Shown here: positions 9,627 through 31,090 of the stretch, one piece after another
Layout of the letters: each line of letters begins with the position of its first letter
Position numbering within the stretch: the first letter of the stretch is position 1
Virus record (IMG/VR): IMGVR_UViG_3300009551_000095
Span: 1 to 31,090 of that record
Reading direction: 5' to 3' (one strand)
Length of the DNA: 31,090 bases
Origin: a virus
Program-made: the position numbers and the translations under genes
Notes under the pieces: generated by a model
The model's input: only the letters and a program-made list of their open reading frames with translations
The model's database searches: none
What the model was told of the DNA's origin: nothing

Positions 9627-10118
9627 ATGGGCAACTCCGCGCCGCGCACATTCGACGCCAAACGCGCGCAGACGTTGTATGAGGACGGCCACGGCTGCAA
9701 CGCGATCGCACGCGAGCTGGGTTGTTCCCCGTCGACCGTGTCGAAGTGGGCGCGCGAGAACGACTTGAGGTTTGACCGGTCGCAGACTGCTCTCGCTGTC
9801 CGTGCGCACGTCATCGACATGGCTGAGGCTCGGCTGCTGTTGGCGCAGAAGATGGTCGTGGCAGCCTCCGACCTCCTGGACCAACTCGACGGCCCGTACC
9901 TGGTGTATGCGTTCGGCGGCAGGGACAACGACTACAACGAGCACCAGCTGGATCGTCCCCCGGTTGAGGTGATCCGCAACGCGGTGACGACGGCGGGGAT
10001 CGCGTTCGACAAGGCGTCGAAGGTCGTGGAGGGCACGAACCCCGGTCAGGCTGCTGCGGTGTCGATGCTGACCGGGCTGGCGTCGCTGATGGGTGTGACC
10101 GGACCGACCGATGCCTGA
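9627..10118 (+). CDS. Terminase small subunit
   Basis: 163 residues from ATG 9627. It recognises phage DNA and hands it to the large subunit for packaging. Residues 18-43 form a clear helix-turn-helix (GHGCNAIARELGCSPSTVSK), the usual DNA-binding part. The helical middle (AVRAHVIDMAEARLLLAQKM) suits the oligomerisation region. Size and the 8-base overlap with the large subunit gene fit. The ribosome site is weak (GAGACGGA). Confidence 0.8.
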   Translation: MGNSAPRTFDAKRAQTLYEDGHGCNAIARELGCSPSTVSKWARENDLRFDRSQTALAVRAHVIDMAEARLLLAQKMVVAASDLLDQLDGPYLVYAFGGRDNDYNEHQLDRPPVEVIRNAVTTAGIAFDKASKVVEGTNPGQAAAVSMLTGLASLMGVTGPTDA

Positions 10119-11391
10119 CCTGCTGTCGGAGGCACAGGTCGCGTCGATCCGTGAGTCATGCACGCGTGTCGCCGTGTGGGAAGGGTCGATCCGATCGGGG
10201 AAGACCCTCGGGTCCCTGTTGCGGTTCCTGATGTTCGTCGCCGTCGCCCCAACCGGCGGTCAGCTCGTCGTCGTCGCACGCACCCGCGACACCGCAGCCC
10301 GCAACGTGTTCGCCCCGCTGCAAGACGAGTCACTGTTCGGCATCGTCGCCCAGCAGGTCAGCTACACCGCTGGCGCCCCGTCGGGGACGATCCTCGGCCG
10401 CACCGTCTACGTCATCGGCGCGAGCGACGCGAAGTCGGAGAAGGTTCTCCGCGGCCTCACCGTCGCCGGCGCATACGTGGATGAGATCACCGTCATCCCC
10501 GAAGAGTTCTTCACCCAACTCCTGGGCCGCATGTCCGTCAAGGGTGCGCAACTGTTCGGCACCACCAACCCGGACAACCCGGCCCACTGGCTGAAACGCC
10601 GCTTCCTCGACCGCCTCGAGCAACTGCCCGACTGGCGACGCTTCCACTTCACCCTCAAAGACAACCCGTCGCTGACACCCGAGTACATCGAGTCGATCTC
10701 ACGCGAGTTCACCGGCCTCTGGTATCGCCGCTTCATCCTCGGCGAGTGGGTGGCGGCTGAGGGTGCGATCTACTCCATGTGGGACGAGTCCCGGCATGTG
10801 ATCCCCTGGGCTGCCCTCCCGCCGATGCGACGCCTGCTGGCGGTGGGTGTGGACTACGGCACCACGAACCCGACCGCCGCTGTCCTCCTGGGGCTGGCGG
10901 ACACGTTCGACCAGTACGGCGCCCGGACCGGGTCGGTGCTGTACGCGGTCGACGAGTGGGGCCACAACCCCGCCCAGACCTCAACGCGCCTCACCGATCA
11001 GGAACTGTCCGCCGGCCTCCGCGGCTGGCTGACCAGCGCGCACCTTCCGACACCTTCGGTTCTCGAACCGGAGTGGGTGTTCCTCGACCCCGCCGCCGCA
11101 TCTTTCAAAGTCCAACTGCAGGCGGACAGCATCCCGAACATCCGCGACGCCGACAACAGCGTCAGCTACGGCATCTCCACCGTCGCTTCCCTGCTGTCCG
11201 CCGGGAAGTTGATCATCACCGACCGGTGCCCGAACCTGCTGCGCGAGATCCCCGGCTACTCGTGGGACCCGAAAGCGACCGACAAGGGCGAAGACAAGCC
11301 GGTGAAGGTCGCCGACCACTGGGCGGACGCACTCAGGTACGCCGTCACCACCACCGAGTCAGTTTGGCGCGGCTTCATCCAACCCGTCTAG
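10111..11391 (+). CDS. Terminase large subunit
   Basis: 426 residues: the ATPase and nuclease that drives DNA into the prohead. Visible motifs are Walker A GSIRSGKT at 25-32, Walker B AYVDE at 121-125 with the catalytic Glu125, and the coupling motif TTN at 151-153. The RNase H-like nuclease begins VGVDYGTTNPTAA, with Asp248 as the first acidic residue. A second acidic site is FLDPAAASFK and a late Asp lies in VADHWADALRY. Length is typical for the short actinophage/PBSX-like (terminase_3/6) form. All key residues seem intact. Confidence 0.93.
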   Translation: MPDLLSEAQVASIRESCTRVAVWEGSIRSGKTLGSLLRFLMFVAVAPTGGQLVVVARTRDTAARNVFAPLQDESLFGIVAQQVSYTAGAPSGTILGRTVYVIGASDAKSEKVLRGLTVAGAYVDEITVIPEEFFTQLLGRMSVKGAQLFGTTNPDNPAHWLKRRFLDRLEQLPDWRRFHFTLKDNPSLTPEYIESISREFTGLWYRRFILGEWVAAEGAIYSMWDESRHVIPWAALPPMRRLLAVGVDYGTTNPTAAVLLGLADTFDQYGARTGSVLYAVDEWGHNPAQTSTRLTDQELSAGLRGWLTSAHLPTPSVLEPEWVFLDPAAASFKVQLQADSIPNIRDADNSVSYGISTVASLLSAGKLIITDRCPNLLREIPGYSWDPKATDKGEDKPVKVADHWADALRYAVTTTESVWRGFIQPV

Positions 11392-23636: not shown

Positions 23637-24766
23637 TGACCGACACGTGGATCGCGTTCGCCGCCCGCGACGGGGCGATGATCACCGAGATGCCGCTGCT
23701 CACCATCGAGGGCGACACGATCAAGCAGACCATCGGCAGGTATGAGACCGCGACCGCGCACCTGCCGATTGCCCCGGATGTCGCCCCGCCGCTGTGGAAG
23801 AGGGCGACGAAGAAGGGCGCCGCGATCCTGGTGCTTGTCGAGGACAGCCCTCTCGACCCGCGCGGCATCCCCCGCTGGGGCGGCCTCGTCACGCGACGCC
23901 GCCGCAACCAGACAGACATCGTCGACCTCGACCTCATCACCGGTGAGGGGTACCTCGACCGCCGATACACCGGCTTTCAGACGTTCACCGCGACCGGGCA
24001 GAACGCGATCCTGACGACCCTGCTCGGAATCGTGGTCGATGGTGCCGGCGGTAACAACGGCATCCCGTTGCGGGTCGTGAATCTCGACGGTGTGCCAGGC
24101 ACGCTCCGCGACAAGACGTTCCTGGATCAGGACGACAAGACGATCTACTCTGCCCTCGTCGACTTCATGGGCATCATCGGCGGCCCGGAGTGGACGATCG
24201 GTTTGGAGTGGGTGGACAACACCCACATCGGTTTCGTCGCGTACGTCGGGACCCGGATCGGTTCCAGCCCTGTCGCCGGGACGAACCCGGCAGCCCAGTT
24301 CGACCTGCCGGGCAACGTGAAGGACTTCGAGTTCACGGAGGACTACGGGGCCAGCAACGGCGCCACATCCGTCGTCGCGGTGTCGTCCGGGCAGGGGACG
24401 TTGCGGCCTCAGTCGACGCCGATGATCTCGAACGACCCGGAACGACCCACGTTCGAGTACCGGTTCACACCATCCACGTCGATCACGGACGTGGCGACCC
24501 TCAACGGGCACGCCACTGACGAACTCGCCGTCCTTCAAGGTGGGACGTCGTCGTTGACGTTGACCGCTGATCTGCATGATGCGCCGCAGCTGGGTGTCGA
24601 CTGGAACCTGGGCGACGATGTCGGCTACTCGGTCGCTGGCACTGTTCCCGCGTTCGCTCCTGACGGCATCAGCGGGTCAGCACGCGCCGCTGGGTGGGAG
24701 CGCACCCTGACCGGTACCCGCACCATCTCACCCGTCCTCGTTCTACCTGGAGACCTCTATGAGTAG
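23636..24766 (+). CDS. Tail hub / minor tail protein (Tal N-terminal-like)
   Basis: 376 residues from ATG 23636, one base overlapping the Dit stop. Strand-rich, beginning TDTWIAFAARDGAMITEMPL and continuing LTIEGDTIKQTIGRYETATA. A later RWGGLVTRRRRNQTDIVDLD and the VKDFEFTEDYGASNGATSVV segment fit the gp27-like hub domains of siphoviral minor tail proteins of similar length. No enzymatic extension is visible, so it should be the structural plug only. It overlaps the next gene by 8 bases. Confidence 0.7.
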   Translation: MTDTWIAFAARDGAMITEMPLLTIEGDTIKQTIGRYETATAHLPIAPDVAPPLWKRATKKGAAILVLVEDSPLDPRGIPRWGGLVTRRRRNQTDIVDLDLITGEGYLDRRYTGFQTFTATGQNAILTTLLGIVVDGAGGNNGIPLRVVNLDGVPGTLRDKTFLDQDDKTIYSALVDFMGIIGGPEWTIGLEWVDNTHIGFVAYVGTRIGSSPVAGTNPAAQFDLPGNVKDFEFTEDYGASNGATSVVAVSSGQGTLRPQSTPMISNDPERPTFEYRFTPSTSITDVATLNGHATDELAVLQGGTSSLTLTADLHDAPQLGVDWNLGDDVGYSVAGTVPAFAPDGISGSARAAGWERTLTGTRTISPVLVLPGDLYE

Positions 24767-25475
24767 TGCGGTGCGCAGGATCCCGTACGGGGCCGATGTG
24801 GCGGTGCGGAAGCGGCAAGACCTTGAGCGGGCGCAGAAGGAGCAGGCTGCGTCGCGTGGTCTGGCGGCCTCGCAGATCGGGTCGGGCGGCATTCTGAAGG
24901 TCGACGGATCGTTGCAGGTCACTGGCTCGATCACGGTTCCGGGGACGCTCGCCTCAGCAGGTGCGGTCACCGCCGGCACCACAGTCACCGCCGGCACCGA
25001 CGTGAACGCGGGCGGCAACGTGGTCGCCCCCAACGGCACCCTTGTCTCCGTCTACGCGCGAAATCACCAAGTAGCTACCGGGTACGTGTCCGCCTGGATC
25101 GACATTTCGGGGAACGTACTGGCAACCGCGTCAGCCAGGAAGTTCAAGCGCGACATCTCCGACTTCAGCCGCTCGCCGTGGCGCCGCATCCAACCCGTGA
25201 TCTACCGGCTCCGCTCGGCGTGGATCCTCGCGGACATGGAAGGCCGCGACACCGACACGGTTCCGTTCGAGATCGGTGTCATCGCCGACGACCTCTTGGA
25301 GGACTACCCCGAACTTGTCGTGCTCGACGCTAAAGGCGAGCCGTGGTCGTTCCACTACGAACGTCTCGCCGTCGTGGCCATAGACGCCGCACAACAGCTC
25401 GCAGAAGAGAACGACGAGCTACGAGGCGAACTGCAGGCCCTCGCCGAGAGAGTCGCGAAGCTCGAGCAGAGCTAG
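24759..25475 (+). CDS. Minor tail protein with C-terminal S74 (endosialidase-type) intramolecular chaperone
   Basis: 238 residues from ATG 24759, after GGAGA. A helix-forming N-terminus (KRQDLERAQKEQAAS) leads to a short beta repeat region with VTAG-T motifs; an 18-base tandem repeat is visible at 24966-24998. The last 115 residues are an S74 auto-chaperone: ATASARKFKRDISDF from residue 122, IQPVIYRLRSAW, PFEIGVIADDLLEDYPELVV and a final coiled coil EENDELRGELQALAERVAKL. These domains trimerise the shaft and then cut themselves off, with Ser125 as the likely nucleophile. The shaft is unusually short, so a small trimeric tip or tail spike is likely. Confidence 0.82.
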   Translation: MSSAVRRIPYGADVAVRKRQDLERAQKEQAASRGLAASQIGSGGILKVDGSLQVTGSITVPGTLASAGAVTAGTTVTAGTDVNAGGNVVAPNGTLVSVYARNHQVATGYVSAWIDISGNVLATASARKFKRDISDFSRSPWRRIQPVIYRLRSAWILADMEGRDTDTVPFEIGVIADDLLEDYPELVVLDAKGEPWSFHYERLAVVAIDAAQQLAEENDELRGELQALAERVAKLEQS

Positions 25476-25948
25476 TCGCAGGTCGGCACGCCGTTGACGG
25501 TGGACGCTGACCCCGACTCGCAGTACGTGCCAGGGTCGGCGTAGTCGCCGCCGTTGGCGTTCTGCGGATCGTTCGACGGGTAGAACGGGAGCGGCGTCCC
25601 TGATGGGTGGCGCGTGCTGCTTGTCTGCTGAGCAGCGGCCTGCTGCGCTGCAGCCGCTGCAGCTGCCGCAGCAGCCGCGGCGTCCTCACGCGCCTGCTCG
25701 TCAGCTGCGGCCTGCTGGCTGTCCTGCGCGATCTGCTCCGACTCAGTGACCTCAGCGTGGGACAGCAGCGGCGCCTCGGCGACCGCGCGCGGTGCCGGGG
25801 CCGTGTTCGCCTGGCGTGCCGCCCACACCGACCCAGCTCCGGTCCCGACCGCGACAGCCAGCACGGCCGCGCCGACGATCGCGGCGACCTTCCCCGGGTG
25901 GGTGCGCTGCATGAGGCGGTCGCTGGGCAACTTCTGATTCGTGTTCAT
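25472..25948 (-). CDS. Reverse-strand membrane-anchored secreted protein in the tail operon (moron candidate)
   Basis: 158 residues, opposite to every other gene in the late region. A basic N-terminus is followed by one hydrophobic segment at 21-43 (VAAIVGAAVLAVAVGTGAGS), a transmembrane anchor or signal. An Ala/Gln-rich tract at 75-110 forms a long stalk. A Pro/Gly C-terminal part ends YCESGSASTVNGVPTCD, with a likely disulfide between Cys143 and Cys157. The end resembles excalibur-like or cell-envelope proteins of Actinobacteria but lacks a clear motif. Its stop shares the palindrome CTAG with the preceding gene's stop. The start is ATG with only a weak GAGCGG. Expression from the prophage and a role in changing the host surface are inferred. 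Confidence 0.68.
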   Translation of the reverse strand: MNTNQKLPSDRLMQRTHPGKVAAIVGAAVLAVAVGTGAGSVWAARQANTAPAPRAVAEAPLLSHAEVTESEQIAQDSQQAAADEQAREDAAAAAAAAAAAAQQAAAQQTSSTRHPSGTPLPFYPSNDPQNANGGDYADPGTYCESGSASTVNGVPTCD

Positions 25949-26008
25949 GGCCCGCTCACTTAACCGCCGCTGATCCGTTCTGTCTACCCCCCGTTTGAGG
26001 AGAGTTCC

Positions 26009-26998
26009 ATGGCTGTCGCCGTCTACCCGCTCGACGCTATCTCGAGCGTTCCCCTCTACACGGGCCGGATGCTGCGCGACACCCTCGCGGCGATCCTCGG
26101 CGGCGCCACTTCCACCCGCCCGCTCGGCATCCGGTCGGGTCTGCGACCGAACACCCCGACCGACTGCATCACCATGAGCGGCCTGAACTGGACCGCGGTG
26201 AAGAGCTTCGCTGGCGCGGTCGATGTTCAGACGGCCGCTGAGGCTGGGCCGTACCTCTTCGCGATCACCGGCTCACCGACCGGCACGATCGCTGCACAGG
26301 ATGCGACGAATCCGCGCAAGGACATCCTCACGTTGCTGGTGTCCGACAACGCGGAGGACTCCACCGGAGTCGCGAGCGGCACCCTCGTCTACACGCAGGG
26401 GGTGGCTTCGGCGTCGCCAGCCCAACCGGCAACACCGGCGCGTTCGTTCCTGATCGGCGTGTTCAACGTGCCCAAGTCCGGCACCGGTTCGCCGACGTTC
26501 ACCCTCACCACCGCGGTCCTGTCTGCCGCCGGCGGAATCGTGAAGACCTCCACCGCCGCCGACTACCCGGCTTCACCTGTGGTCGGCGACTACATCGACG
26601 ACTCCACCCTCGGGCTGCTTCGGTGGAACGGGTCATCGTGGGTGAGCGTCCCCGCGTCGTCGTCGGGCTCATACTCCCTCGGTTCGGGGATCACGAACCT
26701 GTCGGGTTACACGCAGGTGCTCCGGAAGAACGGCAACGTCGTCACTGGTGCTTTCGCTTTCGTCAACGCCAACACCACCACTACGGCTGCCCCGGGCGCG
26801 GGGACGACGATCGCGACGCTGCCGGCGGGGTTCCGACCCACGATCGACCCGCTCACGATCTTCAGCGGCGTCAACAACGGTGGAACTATCCCCATCGCCT
26901 ACTCGATCGACACGTCCGGAAACATCAAGGTGAACCCTTCGTCTGGGCTCGGCGCGGGCGCCACCCTGTTCGGTTCCTTCTCCTTCTCGGTGGCTTGA
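26009..26998 (+). CDS. Probable receptor-binding / baseplate tail protein
   Basis: 329 residues from ATG 26009, after GAGGAG. The N-terminal 190 residues have the actinophage minor tail pattern YPLDAISSVPLYTGRMLRDT, then RPNTPTDCITMSGLNWTAVK and NPRKDILTLLVSDN. A short linker with GLLRWNGSSWVSVPASSSGS follows. The last 110 residues are a beta-knob: NVVTGAFAFVNANTTTTAAP, IATLPAGFRPTIDPLTIFSG, ending SGNIKVNPSSG. Such knobs cap phage tail fibres and touch the cell surface. Its place just before the lysis genes fits. Confidence 0.65.
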   Translation: MAVAVYPLDAISSVPLYTGRMLRDTLAAILGGATSTRPLGIRSGLRPNTPTDCITMSGLNWTAVKSFAGAVDVQTAAEAGPYLFAITGSPTGTIAAQDATNPRKDILTLLVSDNAEDSTGVASGTLVYTQGVASASPAQPATPARSFLIGVFNVPKSGTGSPTFTLTTAVLSAAGGIVKTSTAADYPASPVVGDYIDDSTLGLLRWNGSSWVSVPASSSGSYSLGSGITNLSGYTQVLRKNGNVVTGAFAFVNANTTTTAAPGAGTTIATLPAGFRPTIDPLTIFSGVNNGGTIPIAYSIDTSGNIKVNPSSGLGAGATLFGSFSFSVA

Positions 26999-28731: not shown

Positions 28732-28902
28732 CTACGCGACGTTCCGGCGGATGATCTGCTGGATGCGCCAGAGCACGTTGTAGAGGTTGAGCGGTGCCTG
28801 GTCGTAGGTGTCCCAGGTCTGGCCGACGTGAGCGGTCCAGTCGGGGATGCGGCCGCAGCAGATGCGGTGCCCGAAGAGGCGGTAGAGCGTGGTTGCGAAC
28901 AT
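28732..28902 (-). CDS. 56-residue leftward protein, unknown
   Basis: ATG at 28902 (reverse strand) has GGAGGG 7 bases upstream. The protein begins MFATTLYRLFGHRICCGRIP, continues DWTAHVGQTWDTYDQAPLNL and ends in a helix YNVLWRIQQIIRRNVA. The CC pair and amphipathic ends could favour membrane or metal association. No family recognised. The ribosome site and intact frame make it credible. It is the last gene of the leftward cassette. Confidence 0.55.
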   Translation of the reverse strand: MFATTLYRLFGHRICCGRIPDWTAHVGQTWDTYDQAPLNLYNVLWRIQQIIRRNVA

Positions 28903-29370: not shown

Positions 29371-29757
29371 CTACCGGCGGTCGCGGACGCGGCTCCCCGC
29401 GATGATGACGCCAAGCGCGCCGGTGCTGATGATGACCCATCCGACCGCGTGAACCGCCTGAACGATCGCGCCCTCGATCCCGGTGTACGCGTCGCCGCCG
29501 TACGTCTCAGAGTTGACGCCGAAGATGAAGATCAGGCCGATGATGACGGCGGCGATCGCCCAGATGATCGCGACGACCAAGGCCCAGGGTGTGGACGGTG
29601 ACGGCGCGGTGGGAGGCGCGACTTCTGCCTCGAGGTCGTCATCCTTGGGCGGCGGACCGTCCCTCTTCGGCAGTGGCTCGCCGTTGTGCTTCTCGATCTT
29701 TGCGATGAGGGCGGCGCGTCGTGCGTCGGCCTCGGGTCCGGTCGTGGGGCTGCTCAT
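29371..29757 (-). CDS. Leftward two-pass membrane protein (128 aa)
   Basis: ATG at 29757 with no Shine-Dalgarno sequence; TACGCT ends 7-8 bases before it, so the message may be leaderless. The N-terminal 55 residues are charged and Pro-rich (KIEKHNGEPLPKRDGPPPKD). Two transmembrane segments follow: PWALVVAIIWAIAAVIIGLI and VHAVGWVIISTGALGVIIAG, joined by an Asp/Gly-rich loop, with a basic end SRVRDRR. Both ends should be cytoplasmic. It may act in superinfection exclusion, but that is inferred only from location and topology. Confidence 0.65.
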   Translation of the reverse strand: MSSPTTGPEADARRAALIAKIEKHNGEPLPKRDGPPPKDDDLEAEVAPPTAPSPSTPWALVVAIIWAIAAVIIGLIFIFGVNSETYGGDAYTGIEGAIVQAVHAVGWVIISTGALGVIIAGSRVRDRR

Positions 29758-30069: not shown

Positions 30070-30225
30070 ACGGCATCAGACACCAATCACGAGCGTGATC
30101 AGCACCCAGCCGGGAACGTCGCCGCGATCCTCGGCCAGAAGCCCGGCGATTCGTTTCTTCAGCGTCAGAACCATGCCCCGCAGGGTGGCAGAGATCGCGG
30201 ATCACCGGTCAGAACTATCCACACC
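30070..30225. other. Probable right prophage-host junction (attR region)
   Basis: Phage-style genes end at 30069 and a clearly chromosomal-type membrane gene ends at 30226. The region between contains a short leftward ORF that looks like the truncated 5' part of a host gene. The junction should lie near its stop, roughly 30070-30110. No core repeat can be named because attL is outside the window. Serine integrases use only a 2-base shared core, so even with attL it could be hard to see. Confidence 0.45.
30076..30174 (-). pseudogene. 5' fragment of a small host gene, probably cut by prophage integration
   Basis: ATG at 30174 gives MVLTLKKRIAGLLAEDRGDV then PGWVLITLVIGV and a stop. A small actinobacterial protein, as I recall it, has a basic start, a (D/E)RGDVPGWVLITL motif and then a continuing hydrophobic helix before a polar end of some 25 residues. 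Here the helix stops after L-I-T-L-V-I-G-V, as though the 3' part were replaced by phage DNA. It has a poor ribosome site and lies 51 bases beyond the host membrane gene. The alternative is an intact 32-residue peptide. Confidence 0.4.
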
Positions 30226-31090
30226 TCACGCGAACCCGAACACCACCGGCAGCACCAGCACCGCCGCCGTCACCCAGGCGCCGATGACCAGCAGGTACGA
30301 GGTCTGCCAGCGCTCGAGGGCGAGCACCGGGGTGCGACCCCGCAGCATCCGGATGATGATGACCGCCGTGACCACGAGGTCGACCAGCAGCACGATGTTG
30401 AGGCCGAGGGCGGCGACGCGGTTGGCGGTGAAGCCGAACTCGCTGACCCGGGTGAGCATCGCCACCAGCACGAGCAGGTCGAGCAGCACGGCCGCGACGA
30501 CCGCAGTGAGGCGCAGGGCATCCATCAAACCGGGGCGGCGCGTGCTGCGGGCCGAGATGCCGTAGATCACCAAGCCGACGACCACGACCAGCAGCGCGTC
30601 GAACAGGCCGAGCGAGTTGCGGTCGAAGCTGCGGCCGAATGCCGTCACCGCATAGATCACGGTGCTGACCAGCAGCATCGCGGCGAACAGCGGCGTGAAG
30701 ATCGCGGTCAGCACGGGCGCGATGTTCTCGATCACGCTCTTCTTCGCCTCGACCAGCCAGGCGGCGACCAGCACCGCGCCTGCTGCCCCGGCGGGCACTA
30801 CCCAGACGAACACGGCCTGCGCCGCGTTGGCAGCGGCCAGCGAGAGCACGCCGTCCATCAGCCCGACGAGCACACCGCCGGCCAGCGCGATCAGCGCGTA
30901 GTAGACGATGAACTCGCCGGTGAAGCGCAAGAAGTCCATCCGCCGATCCGACGAGCGCCACTCGCCGCCGAGGTAGGCGAGCCCGACCACGAACCACAGC
31001 ACGACGGGTAGGTGGATGGCGACGATCACCTCGGTAGCCCGGTCGCCGTGATACGGGAACAGGTTCACCGCGAGCGCGAGCACCACCACG
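30226..31090 (-). CDS. Multi-pass membrane protein, DUF4153-like, probable host gene (5' end beyond window)
   Basis: At least 287 residues on the reverse strand, running to the window edge; the beginning is probably outside. About seven or more hydrophobic segments are visible: HLPVVLWFVVGLAYL, YYALIALAGGVLVGL, VFVWVVPAGAAGAVLVAAWL, LFAAMLLVSTVIYAV, ALLVVVVGLVIYGI, VVAAVLLDLLVLVAML and LLVIGAWVTAAVLVLPVVFG. The RFTGEFIVYYALIALAGGVL region resembles DUF4153-type proteins of bacterial chromosomes. Nothing is phage-like, so I treat it as the flank of the prophage. Function unknown. Confidence 0.65.
   Translation of the reverse strand, partial: VVVLALAVNLFPYHGDRATEVIVAIHLPVVLWFVVGLAYLGGEWRSSDRRMDFLRFTGEFIVYYALIALAGGVLVGLMDGVLSLAAANAAQAVFVWVVPAGAAGAVLVAAWLVEAKKSVIENIAPVLTAIFTPLFAAMLLVSTVIYAVTAFGRSFDRNSLGLFDALLVVVVGLVIYGISARSTRRPGLMDALRLTAVVAAVLLDLLVLVAMLTRVSEFGFTANRVAALGLNIVLLVDLVVTAVIIIRMLRGRTPVLALERWQTSYLLVIGAWVTAAVLVLPVVFGFA

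Follow-up and report, generated by a model that had tools for sequence, protein, structure and literature searches.

A reverse-strand gene convergent with the S74 tail-fibre gene of actinobacterial phages encodes a predicted exported, stalked protein with a two-Cys module

RESULTS

A leftward gene among the late genes

The window analysed here is the whole length of a virus record of 31,090 bases. Its reverse-strand open reading frame at 25472-25948(-), called P0001 below, has an ATG start and encodes 158 amino acids (aa). The features of the gene and its surroundings are as follows.

24759..25475, forward: tail-fibre protein with a C-terminal chaperone domain of Peptidase_S74 type (Pfam, PHROG, HMM), the constant convergent neighbour
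25472..25475, no strand: CTAG, the antiparallel stops common to P0001 and the S74 gene; overlap conserved in relatives
25472..25948, reverse: P0001, 158 aa, exported and probably membrane-anchored, stalked protein; ATG start, dN/dS <0.3, homologues at the same site
25475..25612, reverse: C-terminal two-Cys module, residues 113-158 (alignment; AlphaFold mean pLDDT 94.6)
25625..25759, reverse: Ala/Gln helical stalk, residues 64-108 (AlphaFold helix 64-108, mostly high pLDDT)
25823..25891, reverse: predicted hydrophobic signal-anchor or signal peptide, residues ~20-42, after a charged N-terminus (hydropathy; AlphaFold helix 18-37, low confidence)
25958..25986, reverse: promoter-like TAGACA - 17 nt - TTAAGT, 9 nt before the ATG, with no Shine-Dalgarno; contains the only TTAA of the window (25960)
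26009..26998, forward: tail or virion structural protein on the 5' side of P0001 (phrog_3398, E=1.8e-20), an inconstant neighbour

P0001 is a real gene under purifying selection. Comparison with its closest relative, L009, over 106 conserved codons gave a dN of 0.16 and a dS of 0.74 (dN/dS about 0.22), and ratios of 0.06-0.25 were obtained for other pairs. An earlier note on this DNA had described a lone leftward gene among about 20 late genes, sharing CTAG with the stop of its neighbour. Both observations were borne out: codon-model gene calls gave about 21 rightward genes and P0001 as the sole leftward one from the terminase (10111) to 28669, and CTAG at 25472-25475 contains the TAG stops of both P0001 and the S74 gene. 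Beyond the tail and lysis genes, two more small leftward genes were seen at 28732-28902(-) and 29371-29757(-), the latter membrane-protein-like. No terminator was found within 24700-26200, and no RNA family in the P0001 region.

The fibre gene at 24759-25475(+) matches the S74 family in Pfam with E=2e-4 and 21.9 bits, just under the 22-bit cut-off, and also matches PHROG tail-fibre families. The gene on the 5' side varies among phages carrying the module gene, so that of the two tail-fibre-type genes which P0001 was said to split, only the S74 gene is a constant partner.

The window looks like a prophage, because the gene at its right end (30226-31089) has its best relatives in Microbacteriaceae chromosomes. 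A stretch of 34 nt at 30102-30135 is 89% identical to the anchor-coding part of P0001 and is probably a chance GC-rich match.

Protein architecture and predicted fold

The earlier description of a membrane-anchored, Ala/Gln-stalked protein with a C-terminal Cys pair was supported for the stalk and for the Cys pair, while the anchor is a likely prediction. The N-terminus of P0001 is positively charged and followed by the hydrophobic segment (residues ~20-42), which makes membrane anchoring likely, a cleaved signal peptide being the alternative. Such an N-terminal hydrophobic helix was present in the members read; a clear lipobox occurred only in L122, a carrier of the second module described below. 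AlphaFold modelled the stalk of full-length P0001 as a helix, but predicted the anchor poorly. In contrast, the module alone (46 aa, 13 sequences) was modelled with a mean pLDDT of 94.6 and ends in a C-terminal beta-hairpin near the Cys pair. C143 and C157, 14 residues apart within this confidently predicted domain, are invariant in the 13 aligned members. From this arrangement we infer a disulphide in the module, which would be displayed at the cell surface.

The module had no significant match in a PDB profile search or in Foldseek searches against PDB and BFVD, and none of Pfam, PHROGs, NCBIfam and PADLOC has a family that covers it. Pfam and NCBIfam matches to TolA, DUF2514 and adhesins reflect the low-complexity composition of the stalk and were rejected.

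Relatives of the module gene

The one relative recovered by full-length searches, L003/L009, has its gene at this site and in this orientation, with 76% identity over residues 1-89 and an unrelated C-terminus. The C-terminal 32-42 residues as query identified nine viral contigs (L109-L117) and three clear loci in Microbacteriaceae genomes (L095-L097, extended as L102-L104). Neither full-length P0001 nor window-type C-terminal modules were matched in 50,697 phage genomes, and a genome scan with two full-length sequences was likewise empty; the module-only query was needed. A module search of 346 genomes from the genus of Microbacterium sp. BR1 found none, and the module is therefore rare in this genus or found in other genera. 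The tail genes have Arthrobacter and Streptomyces relatives, in which the place of P0001 holds rightward genes only and a P0001-type gene is absent.

A weak module-like match broken by TGA in a 1.3-Mb Microbacteriaceae genome (G111; L098/L108) is possibly a decayed copy. The match of contig L011 to a promoter-derived DNA pattern was unrelated and due to chance.

Convergent linkage with the S74 fibre gene

At all 15 loci where an S74 gene adjoins, the module gene is antiparallel to it and the stops overlap, by 4 nt in 13 cases, 11 nt in L121 and 39 nt in L102. A scan in the other direction, with four S74 proteins drawn from carriers as queries, returned 12 loci. In each of the eight close ones (L132-L137, L139, L140; six of them new contigs) a two-Cys gene converges on S74 and overlaps it by 4 nt; the four distant matches (L138, L141-L143) have none. 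After removal of duplicates (in this region L137 repeats L136 and L140 repeats L139, and L132/L133 are L116/L117), the scan added four distinct cases. Altogether a convergent gene with overlapping stops lies beside S74 in 19 distinct phages or prophages including the window, with the exact 4-nt overlap in 17 of them (16 of 18 without the window). Two of the 19, L009 and L121, carry a second Cys module at this site.

Modular exchange of anchors and stalks

Anchors and stalks are largely unrelated across groups and include Ala/Gln or Ala/Lys helices, a Pro/Thr-rich stalk (L109) and a PKD domain (L117; Pfam E=2e-22). The modules of the window and of L109 share 85-88% identity and stand on unrelated stalks, that of L109 being Pro/Thr-rich, and L117 joins a window-like N-terminus to a C-terminus of the L104/L116 group. 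Thus the parts have been exchanged as modules. In pairwise comparisons, module identity correlated with the identity of the S74 C-terminus next to it (Mantel r=0.69, p=1e-4). The correlation with the N-terminus of the module protein itself was weak (r=0.19, p=0.03), and there was none with the S74 N-terminus (r=0.06). One exception was observed: the window and L109 have similar modules beside S74 C-termini at 34% identity. The correlation fits a functional pair of module and S74 C-terminus but is no proof of such a pairing, because physical linkage alone is also expected to give it.

A conserved promoter-like sequence

Most copies of the module gene have no Shine-Dalgarno sequence. Of 15 convergent genes, 11 have TANNNT at 5-8 nt ahead of the start codon, compared to 13 of 255 other genes at the same loci, a contrast whose Fisher p-value is inflated because relatives are not independent; four further convergent members also have TANNNT before the start. 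TAnnnT is found ahead of 97% of transcription starts in Corynebacterium glutamicum, also an actinobacterium, in which 33% of mRNAs have no leader (PMC3890552). The spacing of the -10-like TANNNT in most copies, 6-7 nt from the start codon, suggests leaderless mRNA here too, and P0001 would have its own promoter. The window and L009 have a weaker form of the element, TAGACA-17-TTAAGT at 9 nt from the ATG, which a strict consensus scan did not detect; the -10 of the window is non-consensus (TTAAGT or TAAGTG).

TTAA occurs once in the 31,090 nt, at 25960 inside this element. Across 15 loci (194 kb) there are 26 TTAA sites, of which 17 fall in the 45 nt preceding module-gene starts, and several relatives have paired TTAA 20 bp apart at this position, which might represent -10 and -35 elements or an operator. 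The scarcity of TTAA is about that expected from trinucleotide content, which does not explain its placement.

A second Cys module, and the lifestyle of carriers

The second Cys module (CPAGS...NDTSC...) was first met in L003. As a query it identified the Microbacterium phages Wyvern and Isperia, contigs L119-L123 and genome loci L105-L107. The two Cys modules could not be shown to be homologous (hhalign probability 2%); they are linked by site, architecture and Cys loop only. Second-module genes adjoin integrases in L119, L120 and L107, and lie between terminase and portal genes at four loci, where a TTGACA/TTGACT-like -35 was seen and the starts suggest leaderless mRNA:

L093:3659-4144
L094:3150-3641
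L122:1558-1989
L123:1561-1998

In Microbacterium sp. BR1 the module gene (L107:9831-10373) adjoins tRNA-Lys and an integrase, and the short gene after it (L107 oriented 9977-10303) is a second lipoprotein-like one.

Among carriers of either module, tyrosine integrases are present in L109, L111 and L114, and a serine recombinase in L121. No integrase was detected by HMM search in Wyvern and Isperia, nor in the annotation of Isperia. The presence of a second-module gene in these lytic-looking phages may mean that lysogen-only expression is not general.

DISCUSSION

We favour, with moderate confidence, the reading that P0001 is an exported, independently transcribed surface protein whose module is inherited with the S74 fibre gene and which acts in superinfection exclusion in the manner of Llp. 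The N-terminus would hold this small protein at the cell envelope, and a rigid, replaceable stalk would raise the compact, disulphide-looped module to the cell surface. Transcription, antisense to the late tail operon, would start from its own sigma-A-type promoter and give a mostly leaderless mRNA, so that P0001 could be made while the late genes are silent, in the lysogen or early in infection; convergent transcription may switch it off once late transcription starts. The module, co-inherited with the adjacent fibre gene, would probably mask, or compete for, the surface structure which the S74 fibre presumably binds. The earlier proposal of exclusion of phages sharing a receptor makes sense at such a location.

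The closest analogues are the lipoproteins Llp of T5 and BF23 and Cor. In T5, llp adjoins the receptor-binding gene oad, and its lipoprotein product blocks the receptor (PMC4728585), as detailed by work on Llp and FhuA (PMC9586334); the Llp of BF23 is cognate but non-homologous to that of T5 (PMC4728585). P0001 would resemble these proteins in being small, exported and anchored, and has in common with them a Cys pair, a gene beside a receptor-binding or fibre gene, and cognate versions that differ between phages (PMC4728585, PMC9586334). The linkage to a tail-fibre gene that marks Llp and Cor is found here as convergence with S74 in the 19 distinct phages and prophages. However, no PDB chain matched P0001 in sequence or fold, and it differs in its long stalk, its Gram-positive host and its antiparallel gene with overlapping stops, so the likeness is an analogy at most. 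The prophage defence of mycobacteriophage Butters, gp30/gp31 (PMC7542560), is another case of actinophage-encoded protection with a membrane protein; unlike P0001, it is a two-component system with a cytoplasmic partner and is located between the lysis and immunity cassettes.

P0001 also shares features with morons, as which the earlier note had classed it: a promoter-like element of its own, an orientation independent of the late operon, a predicted exported product, temperate carriers, and second-module relatives at variable sites (by an integrase or between terminase and portal). What did not hold is the notion of a sporadic insert, since the site is conserved: P0001 has a constant S74 fibre partner (8 of 8 close S74 loci). 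A terminator of its own was not found within 24700-26200. The note had reasoned that a position conserved in the tail set of all relatives, combined with phage-phase expression, would speak against a moron. All close S74 relatives examined have the gene at this position. For late phage-phase expression there is no indication, as the gene lies antisense to the late operon, with a promoter-like element of its own.

Among other explanations, the strongest, though unlikely, is a lysogenic-conversion protein that alters host adhesion or fitness and has nothing to do with exclusion, the side of S74 being a stable insertion site. Genes of the same architecture carrying the second module by integrases (L119, L120, L107) and between terminase and portal (L093, L094, L122, L123) would suit it, as would stalks resembling the spacers of bacterial surface proteins, including the PKD domain. 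This is difficult to reconcile with a near-invariant convergent linkage to one type of tail fibre and with a module that co-segregates with that fibre. Moreover, Wyvern and Isperia, with no detected integrase, would profit little from long-term host fitness; for a promoter usable by the host polymerase in a lytic-looking phage, early exclusion similar to that by T5 Llp suits better than pure lysogenic conversion.

A virion protein or an assembly factor for the S74 fibre, encoded by chance on the opposite strand, would account for the strict adjacency to S74 and for the co-segregation with it. The hydrophobic export signal, the antisense orientation, the promoter-like element and the missing Shine-Dalgarno make such a role improbable. 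Genes of the same architecture are also found far from S74 elsewhere, where codirectional genes directly follow S74.

Since P0001 ends on the fibre stop and no terminator was seen, antisense regulation by the reverse transcript is conceivable. That the transcript serves mainly as antisense RNA, or in transcriptional interference with the tail operon, would agree with the convergent overlap, the absence of a terminator within 24700-26200 and the conserved promoter-like element; as the protein is under strong purifying selection and contains a conserved folded domain, we consider it highly improbable. A spanin-like lysis protein can hardly be correct: the weak PHROG and Pfam matches (Rz-like spanin, E=0.02; DUF2514, E=0.003, under the Pfam cut-off; Ala/Gln region) are confined to the anchor and low-complexity stalk, endolysin and holin-like genes lie elsewhere and rightward while P0001 is antisense to the late operon, and the Gram-positive host has no outer membrane.

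More tentatively, P0001 may represent an undescribed family of actinophage surface-display proteins. In these, a minimal disulphide-looped domain of new fold would be carried on interchangeable stalks and encoded tail-to-tail with its cognate S74 gene, fibre specificity and exclusion recombining as one cassette, possibly the first of this kind in Gram-positive hosts. The module, for which Pfam, PHROGs and NCBIfam have no family, could be named and searched for. Were this true, phages of Microbacteriaceae, and probably of other actinobacteria, would carry an attachment protein and its matching exclusion protein as a portable pair. The resistance of a lysogen to given phages would become predictable and the co-evolution of fibre and exclusion protein testable, and the pair would offer a direct route to the surface structures bound by such phages.
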